Below, one piece after another: positions 12,617 through 20,766 of a DNA stretch of 64,000 bases. The DNA is from Anaerolineales bacterium (GTDB taxonomy: Bacteria > Chloroflexota > Anaerolineae > Anaerolineales > UBA11579): positions 352,962 through 416,961 of the forward strand of contig JAJTXV010000002.1 in assembly GCA_021463845.1 (NCBI GenBank), given 5' to 3'. The translations under genes were made by a program, and so were the position numbers. How positions within the stretch are numbered: position 1 is the first letter of the stretch; every line of letters begins with the position of its first letter. The notes below the pieces were generated by a model. The model did no database searches and was not told the origin of the DNA. It was given only the letters and a program-made list of their open reading frames with translations.

Positions 12617-13570
12617 TTAAGTCTGGGGCAAATGTGCGGCCGGGTCAGCGCCGTTGTGCTGCATCACCACCGCGATCTGCTGCAGGGTGGGCATGTTGTG
12701 CCCGGTGCCGATGTTCTGCACCTTGGCCGCGCCGGTGGCGTTGCCAAGCATGGCCAGCGTCTCCAGCGGCAGGCCGTGCAGCACGCCATAGATCATGGCG
12801 CCGGCCACGCTGTCGCCTGCGCCCGTGGCGTCCTTGGCTTCCACGTCCAGACCAGGGGCCTGGACGCGCTCATCGTCGCGGGCGGCCAATAGGCCTTGCT
12901 CGCCGCGTTTGAGCAGGATCAGCTCTGCGCCAATTTTCTGCAGCGCCTGCACCACCGCCTCGTCATCTTCCAGCCCGGTCAGGCGCAGCGCTTCACGGCG
13001 GTTCATCAGCACCACATTGCTCATGGCGATCGCTTCCAGATGCCAGCTGTTATCCATCTCAGGGTTGCCGGGGCCGGGGTCAAAAAAGGTGGTCACACCC
13101 GCGGCGCGGGCCGCTTCGAAGCCAGCCAGCGCCAGCGCCGGGCTCTCCGGGTACTCGGCCCAGCCATCCGCAAAGAACGCGTCGCCACTTTGGATGGCGC
13201 TGTGCCACTGCGGCAACAGGCTGCGGTGCTGCAGCGAGCCTGGGTAGCCAAGGTAGCCGGGTTCGCTGGCCTCATCTACGATGACGCCAGCCACCGGAGT
13301 GTGCGCATCCGGGCTCACCAGGAAATTTTCCACATTGACGCCTTCGCGGCGCAGTCCTTCGCGCACCACCAGGCCGAAGCCATCATCGCCCACTTCGCCC
13401 AGCGCGCCTACCTCCACGCCGAAGCGGGCCGCCATGATGGCCACGTTGCAGGCGCCGCCCGGGCCGACCTCCATATAGGATAGGCGGTGAATATCACGCG
13501 CTTGCACCGGGAACTTTTGCAGGCGCATACCAATATCAGCGATCAAGTCGCCAAGAATATGAAGCTTCAC
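12617..13570 (-). CDS. PfkB/ribokinase-family carbohydrate or nucleoside kinase
   Basis: A 317-residue kinase of the ribokinase fold. The anion-hole and catalytic-base motif DATGAGDSVAGA is near the C-terminus, and the N-terminal Gly-rich substrate region GPGGACNVAIMAARFG is present. The family phosphorylates sugars, nucleosides or HMP-like alcohols with ATP. I chose the GTG at 13570 because GTGA overlaps the stop of the upstream ATPase by 4 bases, the coupling used elsewhere in this operon; an ATG at 13591 in the same frame is the alternative. It is the last gene of a complete ECF transporter operon, so it probably phosphorylates the imported substrate. Confidence 0.85.
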   Translation of the reverse strand: MKLHILGDLIADIGMRLQKFPVQARDIHRLSYMEVGPGGACNVAIMAARFGVEVGALGEVGDDGFGLVVREGLRREGVNVENFLVSPDAHTPVAGVIVDEASEPGYLGYPGSLQHRSLLPQWHSAIQSGDAFFADGWAEYPESPALALAGFEAARAAGVTTFFDPGPGNPEMDNSWHLEAIAMSNVVLMNRREALRLTGLEDDEAVVQALQKIGAELILLKRGEQGLLAARDDERVQAPGLDVEAKDATGAGDSVAGAMIYGVLHGLPLETLAMLGNATGAAKVQNIGTGHNMPTLQQIAVVMQHNGADPAAHLPQT

Positions 13571-14385
13571 TTGTTTTTCTTCTTTCGCCATTGTTTGTAC
13601 TCGTCCACGAATTCATCCACGGTCAGCGGCGTGGCGCGCATTTTCAATGCCTGTGCCAGGCGCACCAGTTGTGGCGGGGCTACCTCGGCCTCGTCCAGTT
13701 TTTTGGTCTGGCTCAGCACCTCAGCGGGCGAACCGTCCAGGTGGATTTTGCCATTAAGCATCACCACCAGGCGCTCGGCATGCTCAGCGCAGAAATCCAT
13801 ATCATGCGAGATCATCATCAAGGTGCGCCCCATTGCGTGCAGATCGGTCAGTATACGACTGATGGCGCGGCATCCCAGTTCGTCCTGCCCGATGGTGGGC
13901 TCGTCCAGCACCAGGATCGGCGTGTCCATGGCGATCGTGGCGGCCAACGCCAGCAGCTTGCGTTGCGGGGCCGGCAGGTCGTATGGGTGCGCATCGGCCA
14001 TGTCTTGCAAGCCCACCAGCTTCAGGGCGCGGCTGACGCGGTGCGCCACTTCGGCCTCGCTGGCCCCCAGGTTGCGCGGTCCGTACGCCACTTCGCGGGC
14101 CAGCGTGCGTTCGAACAGCTGGTCGTCTGGGTTCTGGAACAGGAACCCAACCCGGCTGGCCAGGGCCGCTGGGCTGTGCTGGGCCGTATCCCAATCGCCG
14201 ATGTGTACTGACCCTTGTGCAGGGCGCAGCAAGCCATTGAACAGCTTGACCAGAGTGGTTTTGCCAGCTCCATTCTCGCCGAGGATCGCCAGCAACTGGC
14301 CGGATGGGATGTCTAGGCTGACACCATCCAGCGCCAATACGCCCGATGGGTAGCGAAAGCTGACGCCTTCAGCGCGCAGGTTCAT
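13567..14385 (-). CDS. ecfA: ECF transporter ATP-binding protein (second ATPase)
   Basis: A 272-residue ABC ATPase: Walker A GENGAGKTT near residue 37, Q-loop FLFQNPDDQLFE, Walker B ILVLDEPTIGQDE and switch His in MMISHDMDF. The usual LSGGQ is replaced by a divergent segment (YDLPAPQRKLLALAA), which is odd. The partner ATPase upstream has a normal signature motif, so the pair may hydrolyse ATP asymmetrically. The ATG overlaps the previous stop by 4 bases (ATGA), and the kinase gene overlaps its own end in the same way, so translation is coupled along the operon. Confidence 0.88.
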   Translation of the reverse strand: MNLRAEGVSFRYPSGVLALDGVSLDIPSGQLLAILGENGAGKTTLVKLFNGLLRPAQGSVHIGDWDTAQHSPAALASRVGFLFQNPDDQLFERTLAREVAYGPRNLGASEAEVAHRVSRALKLVGLQDMADAHPYDLPAPQRKLLALAATIAMDTPILVLDEPTIGQDELGCRAISRILTDLHAMGRTLMMISHDMDFCAEHAERLVVMLNGKIHLDGSPAEVLSQTKKLDEAEVAPPQLVRLAQALKMRATPLTVDEFVDEYKQWRKKKNK

Positions 14386-15200
14386 TTCAGCGCCTTCTTG
14401 GCCTGTTCCAATGTGACTGGCAATTTCTTGGTGCGCAGGAGGCGGGCGGCTGCCTCACTATATTGTGTGCGGCCAATGCCGAGGCGCAGCATCTGCTCGG
14501 AGCTAAGCACCTCTTGGGGAGTGCCCTCGGCGCGCAGCTTGCCGCCGCCCAGCGCGATCACGCGGTCACAAAAGGTCGCCAGCCACTCCAGCTTGTGCTC
14601 GGCCAGGATAACGGTAATTTTGCGCGTGCTCACCAGTTTGCTCAGCGCGGTGAAGACATCCCGCGTGCCGTCAGGGTCCAGTTGGGAAGTCGGCTCGTCC
14701 AGCACCAGCACGCGCGGCTGCATGGCCAGGATCGACGCGATCGCAATACGCTGCTGCTGCCCGCCGGAGACCGAGAACGGCGAACGATCGGCCAGGTCTT
14801 GAATATTGACCAGGTCAAGCGCTTCGTCGATGCGGGCGTGCATCTCGCTGCGCGGCAGGCCCAGGTTCTCCAGCCCGAAGGCGATCTCTTCGCGCACTGT
14901 GAAGCGCGCCCCGCTGATCTGATTGAACGGGTTTTGAAACACCAACCCCACCTGGCCGGCCAGCTGGCCCAGGTCCAGCGCGGCCATGTCCTGCCCGTTG
15001 AAAGTGAGCTGGCCCTCGCTTTCTCCATTGTAGAAATGCGGCACAAAGCCGCTCAGCGCGTAACACAGCGTGCTTTTGCCTGCGCCGTTGGCGCCGACGA
15101 TGCCCACGAACTCGCCTTCGGAAATGTCGAGCGAGATGCGTTGCAGAGCCGGCTCCTCTGTGCCCGGGTACCAGTAGCTGAACTTCTTGAGTTCGATCAT
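14382..15200 (-). CDS. ecfA: ECF transporter ATP-binding protein (first ATPase)
   Basis: A 272-residue ABC ATPase with all canonical motifs: Walker A GANGAGKST near residue 36, Q-loop VFQNPFNQI, signature VSGGQQQR, Walker B VLVLDEPTSQLD and switch His in ILAEHKLEW. ECF ATPases drive import with the T and S subunits. An upstream in-frame ATG at 15215 exists, but the start at 15200 forms an ATGA overlap with the T-component stop, matching the 4-base overlap at the gene's other end, so 15200 is preferred. Confidence 0.9.
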   Translation of the reverse strand: MIELKKFSYWYPGTEEPALQRISLDISEGEFVGIVGANGAGKSTLCYALSGFVPHFYNGESEGQLTFNGQDMAALDLGQLAGQVGLVFQNPFNQISGARFTVREEIAFGLENLGLPRSEMHARIDEALDLVNIQDLADRSPFSVSGGQQQRIAIASILAMQPRVLVLDEPTSQLDPDGTRDVFTALSKLVSTRKITVILAEHKLEWLATFCDRVIALGGGKLRAEGTPQEVLSSEQMLRLGIGRTQYSEAAARLLRTKKLPVTLEQAKKALK

Positions 15201-15976
15201 TGCAGGGCGCTCCACAGCCGCCAGGCCAGCAAGGCGGCCGCCGCCAGCACCAGCAGCCAGCGCAGAATGCGCTGGCTTGGGCTGTCAGCCAGGCTGTGCA
15301 GGCTGGTCTTGGGCGCCGGGCTGCTGAAGGCGCGTGCCTCCAGCGCCATGGCGCGCTCGCTGACGTCCATCACGCTGCCCAGGATCAGGGGGCCGACCAT
15401 CGGCAGCAGCAGGCGCACGCGGCTGAGCAAGCCGCTTTGCAGCTCCAGGCCGCGAGCTTGCTGCGCGTCGATGATCACCTGGGCGCGGTCTTGAAAGCTG
15501 GGGAAGATCTGGATGGCGGTCAGCACTACGTAGGCCAGGCGCGGTGGGAAGCCGCGCTCGGTCAGCGCCTGCATCAGCTGGGCTTGCGGCGTGCTCTGCA
15601 TCAGCAGCAGCGTGCCCCCTAATGCCACCAGCAAGCGGGCCGCAAAGGTGAGGCCAGCCAGCAGCCCCTCCTGTGTGAAGGCAAAGCGCCCGAGCCGGAA
15701 TAGCACCGTCTCGCCGCCGCTGAAGAAGCCCTGGATGATGGTGAGTGAGATAACGAAAGGCCCGACCACCAACAGGCAAGACTTTAGAAATGCCGCTGTG
15801 AGGCGGCCCCAGATCGCCAGCGGCAGCAGCAGGCCCACGAAAAGCGCCAGCAGCCAAGCCAGGCTGGGCAGCGCTGCCGCGCTGGCAAAACACAGCGCAG
15901 TAAGCGCTACTTTGGTGAGCGGGTGCAGCCGGTGCAGGCCGCTGGTGCGCTCGATATATATGCTGCCGCCACGCAT
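15197..15976 (-). CDS. ecfT: ECF transporter transmembrane T component (second system)
   Basis: A 259-residue membrane protein with about five hydrophobic helices and the EcfT coupling motifs (DAQQARGLEL near the middle and MALEARAFSSP further on). The frame can be extended to a TTG at 16003, but that codon lies inside the stem of a perfect hairpin. The ATG at 15976 follows AAGGTGG at a 12-base distance, so 15976 is used. The gene overlaps the first ATPase by 4 bases. It couples the ATPases to the S component encoded just upstream beyond the hairpin. Confidence 0.83.
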   Translation of the reverse strand: MRGGSIYIERTSGLHRLHPLTKVALTALCFASAAALPSLAWLLALFVGLLLPLAIWGRLTAAFLKSCLLVVGPFVISLTIIQGFFSGGETVLFRLGRFAFTQEGLLAGLTFAARLLVALGGTLLLMQSTPQAQLMQALTERGFPPRLAYVVLTAIQIFPSFQDRAQVIIDAQQARGLELQSGLLSRVRLLLPMVGPLILGSVMDVSERAMALEARAFSSPAPKTSLHSLADSPSQRILRWLLVLAAAALLAWRLWSALQ

Positions 15977-15996
15977 GCGTCGATTAAACCACCTTA

Positions 15997-16030
15997 AAAA
16001 CAATAGCCCGCTTATGCGGGCTATTGTTTT
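15997..16030 (-). terminator. Perfect hairpin between ECF S and T genes (terminator or attenuator)
   Basis: AAAACAATAGCCCGC at 15997-16011 pairs with GCGGGCTATTGTTTT at 16016-16030, a 15-base perfect stem with a 4-base loop. On the minus strand it is followed by a short TTTTT run. It stands inside the operon, after the S-component gene and before T, so it probably causes partial termination and a higher S-to-energising-module ratio. Confidence 0.75.
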
Positions 16031-16042
16031 GAGTGCGAGTAC

Positions 16043-16717
16043 TTATCTGCGGCGAGTGGACTTCTTGGCGGCTTTCTTGGCCGCCGTTTTCTTGCCAGCC
16101 GGGCGGCGGGTCTTGCCCTGCAGCGGGCGGCCAGCCGCGACCGGCAGGTTGCCGAAGCGAGCCTTCTCACGGGCCGGCAGCGCCAGCAGCAGCGACCAGA
16201 CGATAAGGAAGGTCACCAGCTTGTCGAGCGGGTCAGAGAAGGTGCCCTGAGCCACGTTGGAGAGCAGCGCGTCCAGGCCAGCGGCGCGGAACGCAGCCAC
16301 CAGCGCATCCGTGCCGGCGCCAACCACGCCACCGAACACATAGGTGGCGATGGGGGCGGAGAGCACCGCAGACAGGATGCCCGTGATGATGCCAGCCAGA
16401 GCGGCCTTACCGACGGTATTGAACCAGCCGGAGCGGGCGAACACGCCCGCCAGGGCGCCGATGATGGCGGCCACGCCGGCCCAGGCGAACGCCTGCGGGA
16501 ACAGACCCGTCAGCGTCCACACCAGGTTGGAGAGGAAGCCGGTTGCCGCGCCAGCCCATGGGCCAACCAGAGCGCCCACCAGCACGGTGCCGATGGAGTC
16601 GAGGTACAGCGGCAGGCCGAGGCGCAGCACGATGGTGCCGACCGCCAGGTTGATGCCGATGCCGATCGCCATCAGCGTGATGCTAAGGGTTGTAAATTCC
16701 TTGCGCAAATTCATCAT
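16043..16717 (-). CDS. ECF transporter S component, substrate unknown, basic C-terminal tail
   Basis: A 224-residue protein with six predicted helices. The loop LGLPLYLDSIGTVLVGALVG (about residues 33-52) is of the kind seen in a large family of S components with ill-defined substrates. After the last helix (ending near residue 185) comes an Arg/Lys/Ala-rich tail containing KKTAAKKAAKKSTRRR, unusual for an S component and reminiscent of nucleic-acid-binding or ribosome-targeting tails. The start is one of two adjacent ATGs (16717/16714) behind AAGGAG. A TATAAT on the minus strand lies near 16768. First gene of the ECF-kinase operon, divergent from rnhA. Confidence 0.78.
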   Translation of the reverse strand: MMNLRKEFTTLSITLMAIGIGINLAVGTIVLRLGLPLYLDSIGTVLVGALVGPWAGAATGFLSNLVWTLTGLFPQAFAWAGVAAIIGALAGVFARSGWFNTVGKAALAGIITGILSAVLSAPIATYVFGGVVGAGTDALVAAFRAAGLDALLSNVAQGTFSDPLDKLVTFLIVWSLLLALPAREKARFGNLPVAAGRPLQGKTRRPAGKKTAAKKAAKKSTRRR

Positions 16718-17275: not shown

Positions 17276-17280
17276 CTGTG

Positions 17281-17351
17281 AGGCGACGACGGGATTCGAA
17301 CCCGTGGTCAGGGTTTTGCAGACCCTTGCCTTGCCACTTGGCCACGTCGCC
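17281..17351 (-). tRNA. tRNA-Cys (GCA)
   Basis: Read on the minus strand, the acceptor strands GGCGACG and CGTCGCC pair, the anticodon loop is CTGCAAA with anticodon GCA, and the T arm contains GGTTCGAATCC. CCA is not encoded. A TATAAT on the minus strand at 17361-17366 lies just upstream, so the gene can have its own promoter. Confidence 0.95.
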
Positions 17352-17384
17352 GGAACGGGCATTATACCTAGCGTAGTTGCCCGT

Positions 17385-17420
17385 AAAGAAAAACAGGCCA
17401 GCGGCCTGTTTTTCTTTTTT
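17385..17420. terminator. Terminator between tRNA-Gly and tRNA-Cys
   Basis: GAAAAACAGGCC at 17388-17399 pairs with GGCCTGTTTTTC at 17403-17414 around AGC. Long T-rich runs flank it on both strands. It separates the two tRNA genes into independent units. Confidence 0.85.
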
Positions 17421-17424
17421 TCTG

Positions 17425-17497
17425 AGCGGGCGACGAGACTCGAACTCGTGACCTTCTCCTTGGCAAGGAGATGCTCTACCAACTGAGCCACGCCCGC
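17425..17497 (-). tRNA. tRNA-Gly (GCC)
   Basis: Read on the minus strand: acceptor GCGGGCG paired with CGCCCGC, D arm with GGCTCAGTTGGTAGAGC, anticodon stem TCTCC/GGAGA enclosing TTGCCAA with anticodon GCC, T arm with GAGTTCGAGTC. CCA is not encoded. A minus-strand TATAAT at 17506-17511, with TTCACA 18 bases further upstream, is a likely promoter. Confidence 0.96.
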
Positions 17498-17547
17498 AGT
17501 GTAACAATTATAGCCGGATTCATGAACAACTGTGAACCCGAGCCCTG

Positions 17548-17609
17548 GAGAAACGTCGCTCGGCGTTAGCCGAGCAGTTTCTCTATTAGCAGGGGCGCTA
17601 GCCCCTGCG
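17548..17609. repeat. Pair of palindromes between tRNA-Gly and tRNA-Phe (REP-like)
   Basis: Two hairpins stand side by side: an outer GAGAAAC/GTTTCTC stem with an inner GCTCGGC-GTTA-GCCGAGC, and GCAGGGGC-GCTA-GCCCCTGC at 17590-17609. No long T run adjoins. The GC-rich second stem resembles the short palindromic repeats seen at 21.1 kb and 52.3 kb. Confidence 0.55.
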
Positions 17610-17613
17610 TAAG

Positions 17614-17686
17614 TGCCGAGGGCCGGGATCGAACCGGCGACACCGCGATTTTCAGTCGCGTGCTCTACCAACTGAGCTACCTCGGC
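17614..17686 (-). tRNA. tRNA-Phe (GAA)
   Basis: Read on the minus strand: acceptor GCCGAGG paired with CCTCGGC, D arm with AGCTCAGTTGGTAGAGC, anticodon stem CGCGA/TCGCG around CTGAAAA with anticodon GAA, T arm with GGTTCGATCC. CCA is not encoded. A near-consensus promoter precedes it. Confidence 0.96.
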
Positions 17687-18327: not shown

Positions 18328-19965
18328 CTACAGCTCCTTGACCATGTAGGTGCCCTGGAGCTGATAGCCGCGGCCAGCATAGTAGCGGCGCGTGCCCACC
18401 GCAGCGATGATCGCCATGCGCACATAGCCTGCAGTGCGCGCCAGCTCCTCGGCGTGGGTGAGGAGCTGCGTGCCGAGGCCAATGTGCTGGGCCGCGCCGC
18501 TCTGCTCGGCGCCGACCTCGAGCGATTGCCCATACACATGCACTTCGCGCACCAGGGCCGCGCCGGCCAGCTCGGTCAGGCCGGTGTGCGGCGGCTGTGC
18601 CGCCGCGGGCGCATCGGCGACCGGCAGCGAGAGGCGCAGGAAGCCGGCCAGCTTGTCCTCCGGCGTGACATAGGACAAAAAGTGCTCCTGCGCGTGCGGA
18701 GTGGTGTAGGGCACATCGCGCAGTTCCAGTTCAGCCGGGTCTACGGCGCGGCCGCGCACCTCGCGGCAGCGGATGCAGCGGCAACGTTGGCCGCGTTCGT
18801 GCATGCGGGCGTGCACATCCATGCGCAGGCTGGTGCGCTTGTTGCCCTCGACCACATTGGTGGAAGGGATGTCTCGGATGACGCGGTTGACGCGGCAATA
18901 TTCCGGAATACTGCTCTTGAGCTCGGCCAGCAGCTCAACCAACTCTTCAGTGGTGTAGGGTTGGTACTCGCCGCGCTGCCAGTGCAGATACAGCTCGGCA
19001 TTCTCCAGCAACTGGGTGGGATAGATCTTGAGCTCGTCCGGGTTGTGGCCGGCCCATAGTTTGACGAAGTCTTCCCGGTCGGTCTGCGGGGTGGCGCCGA
19101 GCAGGTTGGGCATGAGGTGCAGCACGATCTTGAAGCCGGCGGCGCGCAGCTGGTCCACGGCGCGCTGGGTTTCGGCGGCGCTGTGGCCGCGCTTGTTGAG
19201 CTCCAGCACGCGATCGTCAAAGCTCTGCGCTCCGAGCTGGACTTTGGTGACCCCCAGGCGGCGCAGCCAGGCGATCTCGCCGGCATCCACATGGTCAGGG
19301 CGGGTTTCGATGGCCAGGCCCACATTGCGGTGGGCGGCGGTCTCGTTGTAGGCGTGAGCCTCTTCCAGGCTGTCAAACGCCGCGCCATTCAGCGCCTCGA
19401 ACATGCGCAGAATAAATTCTTCTTGATAGGCGCGGGTGTATGAGCTCCAGGTGCCACCTAGGATGAGGAACTCGATCTTGTCGGTGGGGTGGCCCACAGC
19501 CTCGAGCGCATCCAGGCGCGAGCGCACTTGCGCATACGGATCGAACTGGTGCTGGAGGGCACGCATGGCGCCCGGCTCGTCTGGCAGGTAGCTCTTGGGC
19601 ATACGCACATCGGTGGGGCAGAAGACGCACTTGCCCGGGCAGGGATAGGGCTTGGTGAGCACGGTGACCACGCTGACGCCGGAGAGCGAGCGCATGGGCT
19701 TGAGGCGGATGCGCCGCAGCAAGGCCGGGTCTTCGGCCATTTCACCGGCCGCCACCAACTGGCGGTAGGCGGCTACTAAAAATTGCTTGCCGATGTAACC
19801 GCCGCCTTCGCCATCCAGCGGGTAGCGGCGCAAGGCCTCATGCGGGCTGGCGCCGGCGCGCACCTCTTCCAGGATCAGGCGGGCGCGTTGCATGCGCTCG
19901 TGGGTGGGGAGCTTGGACTCCTCCCAGGCGTGGATGCGGGGTTCCTGCGGCGTGAGTAAGGTCAT
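18328..19965 (-). CDS. elp3: Elp3-family tRNA wobble-uridine carboxymethyl transferase (radical SAM plus GNAT)
   Basis: A 545-residue protein with the two-domain layout of Elp3. The radical-SAM cluster motif is CPGKCVFC (near residue 100), preceded by LSGVSVVTVLTKP, a hallmark of the family. The C-terminal GNAT domain ends with AIIAAVGTRRYYAGRGYQ. Elp3 uses SAM and acetyl-CoA to make cm5U at position 34 of tRNAs; bacterial and archaeal homologues act without the eukaryotic Elongator partners. The frame is open far upstream, but that part is antisense to the methyltransferase and is rejected; the ATG at 19965 gives family length. Only 9 bases separate this start from the divergent methyltransferase. 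Confidence 0.9.
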   Translation of the reverse strand: MTLLTPQEPRIHAWEESKLPTHERMQRARLILEEVRAGASPHEALRRYPLDGEGGGYIGKQFLVAAYRQLVAAGEMAEDPALLRRIRLKPMRSLSGVSVVTVLTKPYPCPGKCVFCPTDVRMPKSYLPDEPGAMRALQHQFDPYAQVRSRLDALEAVGHPTDKIEFLILGGTWSSYTRAYQEEFILRMFEALNGAAFDSLEEAHAYNETAAHRNVGLAIETRPDHVDAGEIAWLRRLGVTKVQLGAQSFDDRVLELNKRGHSAAETQRAVDQLRAAGFKIVLHLMPNLLGATPQTDREDFVKLWAGHNPDELKIYPTQLLENAELYLHWQRGEYQPYTTEELVELLAELKSSIPEYCRVNRVIRDIPSTNVVEGNKRTSLRMDVHARMHERGQRCRCIRCREVRGRAVDPAELELRDVPYTTPHAQEHFLSYVTPEDKLAGFLRLSLPVADAPAAAQPPHTGLTELAGAALVREVHVYGQSLEVGAEQSGAAQHIGLGTQLLTHAEELARTAGYVRMAIIAAVGTRRYYAGRGYQLQGTYMVKEL

Positions 19966-19974
19966 AATGGGGGC

Positions 19975-20766
19975 ATGGACGCCGCGACTGCGCAGCGACT
20001 CGTTGCCCTGAACAAGGAATTCTATCAAACGCATGCTGAAGCGTTTTCGGCCACGCGCGGCCGCCTGCAACCTGGCACAGTGCGAGTGCTGCGAACGCTG
20101 TTTGGCCTGCCCTCCGATAGCGATGGTGAAAACAGCGTTCGCGGGCGAATGCTGGAAAATGCATTCGCCACTCTTCGGGTCCTGGACCTGGGCTGCGGCA
20201 ACGGCGGCGTGGCGGCCCAGTTGGCCGCCAGCAGGCACCGGGGCAGCTACGTGGGCGTGGACTTTAGCGAAGGCTTGCTGCAGGCCGCCCGCCAGCGGCT
20301 GGCGGCGCACGCTGGCTACCCGGTGGAGTTCATACAGGCCGACCTGAGCGGGGATTGGACCGCGGGCCTGGACGGCCAGTTTGATGTGGCGCTGGCGATG
20401 GCGGTGCTGCACCACATCCCCGGCCGCGAGCTGCGGCTGGCGTTCTTGCAGCGGGTGCGCGCCCTTTTGGGAACGGGCGGGCGCTTTGTGCACTCCAACT
20501 GGCAGTTCATGCGCAGCCCCAAGCTGGCGGCCCGGGTGCAACCCTGGAGCGCTATCCAGCTTGATGAAGCTCAGCTGGATAAAGGCGACTATTTGCTGGA
20601 TTGGCGCAGCGGGGGGACGGGTCTGCGCTATGTGCACCAGTTCAGCGAGGACGAGCTGGCCGAGCTGGCTGCTGAGGCGGGTTTCGAGGTGGGCGAGGTG
20701 TTTTACTCGGACGGCAGCACGGGGGATCTGAGCCTGTATTCTTCTTGGCAGGTGCACCAACGCTGA
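19975..20766 (+). CDS. SAM-dependent methyltransferase, Trm9/ALKBH8-like
   Basis: A 263-residue class I methyltransferase. SAM motif I is VLDLGCGNGG (near residue 69), and an acidic strand end GVDFS follows. The N-terminal pattern LNKEFYQTHAEAFSATR resembles the start of Trm9-type tRNA methyltransferases (N..FY...A..FS.TR). Trm9 methylates the carboxymethyl group of cm5U34 made by Elp3. The gene begins 9 bases from the Elp3 start on the opposite strand, which fits a shared wobble-modification pathway. This link is inferred; a general small-molecule methyltransferase is the alternative. Confidence 0.7.
   Translation: MDAATAQRLVALNKEFYQTHAEAFSATRGRLQPGTVRVLRTLFGLPSDSDGENSVRGRMLENAFATLRVLDLGCGNGGVAAQLAASRHRGSYVGVDFSEGLLQAARQRLAAHAGYPVEFIQADLSGDWTAGLDGQFDVALAMAVLHHIPGRELRLAFLQRVRALLGTGGRFVHSNWQFMRSPKLAARVQPWSAIQLDEAQLDKGDYLLDWRSGGTGLRYVHQFSEDELAELAAEAGFEVGEVFYSDGSTGDLSLYSSWQVHQR

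Follow-up and report, generated by a model that had tools for sequence, protein, structure and literature searches.

A gene for an Elp3 protein and a gene for a class I methyltransferase lie back to back in a 64,000-nucleotide stretch of Anaerolineales DNA (the window), raising the question of whether the two products form a minimal bacterial pathway for wobble-uridine modification. The elp3 gene (18328..19965, minus strand, 545 aa) starts at an ATG at 19965, and the methyltransferase gene (19975..20766, plus strand, 263 aa) at an ATG at 19975. A gap of 9 bp (19966..19974), read from the sequence, separates the divergent start codons. Both open reading frames, which the earlier note had described as starting 9 bp apart on opposite strands, were found at these coordinates. 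A scan for sigma-70-type promoters gave no candidate within or close to the 9-bp gap. The source genome (G000) is 2.33 Mb in size and 96% complete, and its named relatives are nearly all Anaerolineae/Anaerolineales of the Chloroflexota.

The 545-residue protein is a radical SAM/GNAT tRNA wobble-uridine carboxymethylating enzyme, scoring 473 bits against the TIGR01211 ELP3 model (curated cut-off 350). Both the radical-SAM cysteines (CPGKCVFC) and the GNAT acetyl-CoA motif (QHIGLG) are retained. Residues 90-545 align with a solved bacterial Elp3, including the Fe-S cysteines and the acetyl-CoA-site motifs. That archaeal Elp3 forms cm5U34 is established (PMC13315578), and tRNA triggers acetyl-CoA hydrolysis by bacterial Elp3 (PMC6367351).

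Conservation of the pair was examined in the source genome and 60 relatives. Of these genomes, 55 carry the methyltransferase family and 56 carry Elp3; 54 have both. The two genes are at most 1.3 kb apart in 44 of the 54, mostly with less than 300 bp between them; across most relatives the gap ranges from 9 to about 370 bp. In the remaining 10 they are mostly on separate contigs. One genome (G060) carries them 641 kb apart on its single contig, and the two genes thus co-occur also without linkage. The only one of these genomes with the methyltransferase but without Elp3 (G025) has the methyltransferase gene at a contig edge. In a separate collection of 80 named loci, elp3 is divergent from and adjacent to the methyltransferase gene in 70, and the other 10 are mostly truncated by a contig end. 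Every other neighbour family is limited to at most 24 of these 80 loci, and the pair is thus more persistent than its surroundings. The divergent arrangement is far beyond chance. The earlier note would have given up its proposal had the pairing been unconserved in related genomes; this survey of elp3 neighbourhoods in Chloroflexota found it kept across an order, with the methyltransferase occurring essentially only alongside Elp3.

No conserved third gene was identified in the 80 named loci beyond an insertion in one Anaerolineae group, where a CysH-like gene (PAPS-reductase-like, by reading) lies between elp3 and the methyltransferase gene (L099:1581-2408, minus strand); about 13 similar loci have gaps of ~800 bp. 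One relative (G022) has two separate adjacent pairs, on contigs C40 and C123, reflecting either a duplication or a mixed bin. The pair also occurs on a Bacteroidetes-labelled contig (L072), whose methyltransferase is 51% identical to that of the window and which is probably a misbinned Chloroflexota contig. A tblastn search of plasmids returned no match.

The dependence of the methyltransferase on Elp3 extends to the phylum. Across a single sample of 251 Chloroflexota genomes, with the methyltransferase counted at E <= 1e-30 and MnmE by its cut-off, the methyltransferase was present in 24, Elp3 in 45 and MnmE in 97. All 24 methyltransferase genomes also have Elp3 (Fisher p 2e-21), and none of the 251 has Elp3 together with MnmE above cut-off (Fisher p 2e-11), p-values that are descriptive only since they ignore relatedness and the counts are not phylogenetically independent. 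Elp3 without the methyltransferase was found in 20 genomes outside Anaerolineae and in one inside (G246). In an Elp3 tree with an unpaired set from 10 of these 20 genomes, a long, fully supported branch separates methyltransferase-paired from unpaired proteins. Chloroflexota Elp3 proteins fall into two deep clades (L033-L062 and L154-L163), one paired with the methyltransferase and the other, Dehalococcoidia-like, unpaired. The window's Elp3 belongs to the paired clade. Dehalococcoides Elp3 is of the same phylum and enzyme family, but the Elp3 of methyltransferase-free genomes forms a separate deep clade.

Other wobble-uridine enzymes were searched for as well. MnmE had no match in the source genome. 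None of 41 genomes gave an MnmG or CmoB match above cut-off; the weak MnmG matches span only about 100 positions and probably represent TrmFO-type proteins. MnmA, the bacterial s2U34 thiolase, is above cut-off in 34 of the 41, including the source genome. Because MnmE, MnmG and CmoB stay below cut-off and MnmA is present, Elp3, not MnmEG, most likely modifies C5 of U34, with thiolation of the bacterial type. The MnmE–MnmG pathway (cmnm5U/mnm5U) has the same role at U34 C5 but uses other enzymes and another side chain; it is missing here, and in the sample it and Elp3 exclude each other. A search for Trm112p homologues identified a single Trm112-like zinc-knuckle protein elsewhere in the source genome (L143:1405-1725, minus strand, contig C1), possibly an activator of the methyltransferase. 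The neighbouring ORF reads like a UDP-GlcNAc carboxyvinyltransferase.

We then asked what type of methyltransferase accompanies Elp3. Pfam and NCBIfam returned broad methyltransferase families only and did not resolve the type; the best NCBIfam model, CpaM, scored 51 bits against a cut-off of 180. The family profile (A3) matched ScTrm9 with 56.6 and YlTrm9 with 51.0 bits, ahead of UbiG (39.3), Tam (36.3), CmoM (27.1), BioC (20.6) and UbiE (15.4). Trm9 outscored all nine members of a limited control set (UbiG, Tam, CmoM, CmoA, BioC, UbiE, CmoB and two other source-genome methyltransferases; at most 39 bits). In a PDB search with the profile, Trm9 was the ninth match and had the longest coverage among the matches listed (25-221 of 241); a sub-profile of the C-terminal third gave no credible PDB match and did not recover Trm9.

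For the converse search we used a sequence taken to be yeast Trm9, an identity that two checks support: it has R, H, R, Y and N at positions 29, 115, 241, 243 and 271, in agreement with the published mutants (PMC5372719), and its match to the solved Yarrowia Trm9 scores 243 bits. The best match to this query was the methyltransferase family in 41 of the 55 genomes carrying the family (hand count); in the source genome alone, another methyltransferase scored narrowly above the family member. Family matches often begin near Trm9 residue 16, so that R29 is covered, and those of other methyltransferases mostly begin at about residue 40. The earlier note had tied its Trm9 relation to the best matches not being UbiE- or sugar-type enzymes, and the family profile indeed favours Trm9 among the methyltransferases compared.

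Residue comparisons also point to Trm9. The N-FY-A-FS-TR motif, previously taken as a Trm9/ALKBH8 pattern, is present, but its FY..A..FS parts are common among class I methyltransferases; what carries information is the FS-TR arginine, the counterpart of Trm9 R29 in the alignment. None of N13, F16, Y17, F24 and R28 varies among 75 family members, and the same holds for H146, W176 and R218. In the profile alignment, R28, H146, W176 and R218 correspond to Trm9 R29, H115, W145 and R241. Three of the five published Trm9 tRNA-contact residues (R29, H115 and R241) thus match invariant residues, and in Trm9 the R29A, H115A and R241A mutants have lost affinity for tRNA as well as activity (PMC5372719). 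Of the other two, Y243 aligns with V220, a variable position adjacent to Y219, which is invariant; N271 is matched by no identical residue in the alignment, the last strand having no Asn and the loop being different. Because two contact residues differ and archaeal Trm9 was compared by description only, we call the methyltransferase Trm9-like and do not class it as a Trm9 orthologue. R218 and the invariant Y255 further correspond to CmoM R209 and Y247; in the CmoM–tRNA structure (PMC10516636), these two CmoM residues touch the U34 base and the carboxylate. The family thus has contacts to the wobble uridine in common with two carboxyl methyltransferases whose substrates differ. A separate feature of the window's protein is an insertion at about residues 44-66 (20104-20172), shared with a few close relatives and lacking in nearly all other family members.

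The AlphaFold2 model of the methyltransferase (mean pLDDT 93) has a class I fold with many near-equal structural neighbours. METTL6 leads the VIA-align comparison (Z 22.2), CmoM (8joz) has Z 19.8, and Trm9 is not among the best 50 VIA-align entries; in Foldseek, Trm9 (5cm2_Z) ranks 35th with a target-normalised TM of 0.75. As judged from the model, the shared class I fold dominates such comparisons and does not decide the substrate. METTL6 makes m3C32. Its leading position, a fold that by itself leaves the substrate unfixed, and the two differing Trm9 contact residues of five would suit an enzyme with another product, working at the tRNA anticodon loop or at a different point of the Elp3 pathway, for example one that modifies a different base or makes a further cm5U derivative. 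We regard this as unlikely: METTL6 is absent from the best 60 PDB sequence matches of the family profile, among which Trm9 is present, and the Elp3 dependence suggests that the Elp3 product is the methyltransferase substrate.

E. coli CmoM performs the same chemistry, methyl-esterifying the U34 side-chain carboxylate, and its aligned Arg and Tyr contacts and structural similarity would fit a CmoM-like enzyme that methylates cmo5U34 to mcmo5U and is unrelated to the Elp3 product. This is very unlikely because the substrate route was not found: CmoM acts on cmo5U from CmoA/CmoB, and the lack of CmoB above cut-off in all 41 genomes makes cmo5U via that route improbable. Moreover, the key CmoM residue W124 aligns with a histidine (H147), K22 rather than R26 of the CmoM carboxylate site aligns with R28, the profile gives CmoM 27 bits vs 57 for Trm9, and the strict Elp3 dependence would be left unexplained. 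A small-molecule or protein methyltransferase that only shares a conserved neighbourhood with elp3, as the broad families returned by general libraries might allow, is scarcely credible given that co-occurrence holds for unlinked genes, the remaining neighbourhood is unconserved and the Trm9-type residues are invariant.

We therefore favour a Trm9-like role for the methyltransferase, a proposed cm5U34 carboxyl O-methyltransferase on the basis of the profile, residue, genome-context and co-occurrence tests. It is likely that elp3 and the methyltransferase constitute a minimal wobble-uridine pathway, from cm5U34 to mcm5U34 and, with MnmA, to mcm5s2U34, that replaces MnmEG. The substrate, product and order of steps that we infer are as follows. 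Elp3 would carboxymethylate U34 C5 to cm5U by SAM radical chemistry with acetyl-CoA; the methyltransferase, possibly assisted by the Trm112-like protein, would then methylate the side-chain carboxylate of cm5U34 to mcm5U34 like yeast Trm9; and MnmA would thiolate a subset to mcm5s2U34. The Elp3 route would thereby take the place of the missing MnmE–MnmG (cmnm5U) system. The two-protein mcm5U-type system envisaged in the earlier note gains support from the pairing, the Elp3 dependence and the Trm9 profile match, with mcm5U as the presumed product. With somewhat less confidence, we lean towards a broader view in which three proteins (Elp3, the Trm9-like methyltransferase and MnmA) produce mcm5s2U after loss of MnmE/MnmG, a hybrid of eukaryotic/archaeal C5 chemistry and bacterial thiolation.

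Comparison with known systems defines what would be new. Yeast Trm9 (with Trm112) and the ALKBH8 methyltransferase domain are likewise Elp3-tied class I methyltransferases and the best profile match among those compared, with the R29, H115, R241 and W145 positions kept in the bacterial protein. In contrast, Y243 and N271 are not kept, a long insertion of the yeast protein is missing, and the partner is a lone Elp3 instead of the six-subunit Elongator. Eukaryotes are known to have the Elp3–Trm9 pair, and it has been predicted for Haloferax and Sulfolobus; in S. solfataricus the genes are clustered (PMC2584109, PMC5372719). By description, the archaeal systems (Sulfolobus solfataricus, Haloferax) also combine a single-subunit Elp3 with a Trm9 homologue (PMC2584109, PMC5372719), but with a Tuc1/Ncs6-type thiolase in place of the source genome's MnmA. 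The literature places mcm5(s2)U among the eukaryal and possibly archaeal, but not the bacterial, nucleosides (PMC7694415, PMC2584109, PMC5400242), and a review from 2020 credits bacteria with cmnm5U, mnm5U and nm5U but not with cm5U or mcm5U, and excludes mcm5s2U (PMC7694415). Our literature search turned up neither a bacterial Trm9 nor yeast-type wobble-base completion in bacteria, and no report of mcm5U or Trm9 in Chloroflexota; it covered subscription papers and preprints little, so that absence there is weak evidence. With the pair known in eukaryotes and predicted in archaea and no bacterial Trm9 report found, the system is most reasonably taken as a bacterial version of an already known pathway that uses a bacterial thiolase and lacks MnmEG. 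Anaerolineae that have the pair probably complete their tRNA wobble base in the yeast manner. If so, a two-protein bacterial version would bear on the origin of the eukaryotic pathway, would allow the chemistry of Elp3 and Trm9 to be studied in a simple system that lacks the six-subunit Elongator, and would indicate that the widespread bacterial MnmEG route is replaceable.

Two further features lie beside the locus in the window. A cluster of tRNA-Cys, tRNA-Gly and tRNA-Phe genes (17280-17686, minus strand), none with a U34 anticodon, is located ~650 bp from the elp3 end. Beyond it, four overlapping or adjacent genes (13567-16717, minus strand) read as an ECF vitamin transporter-like set with two ATPases and T and S components.
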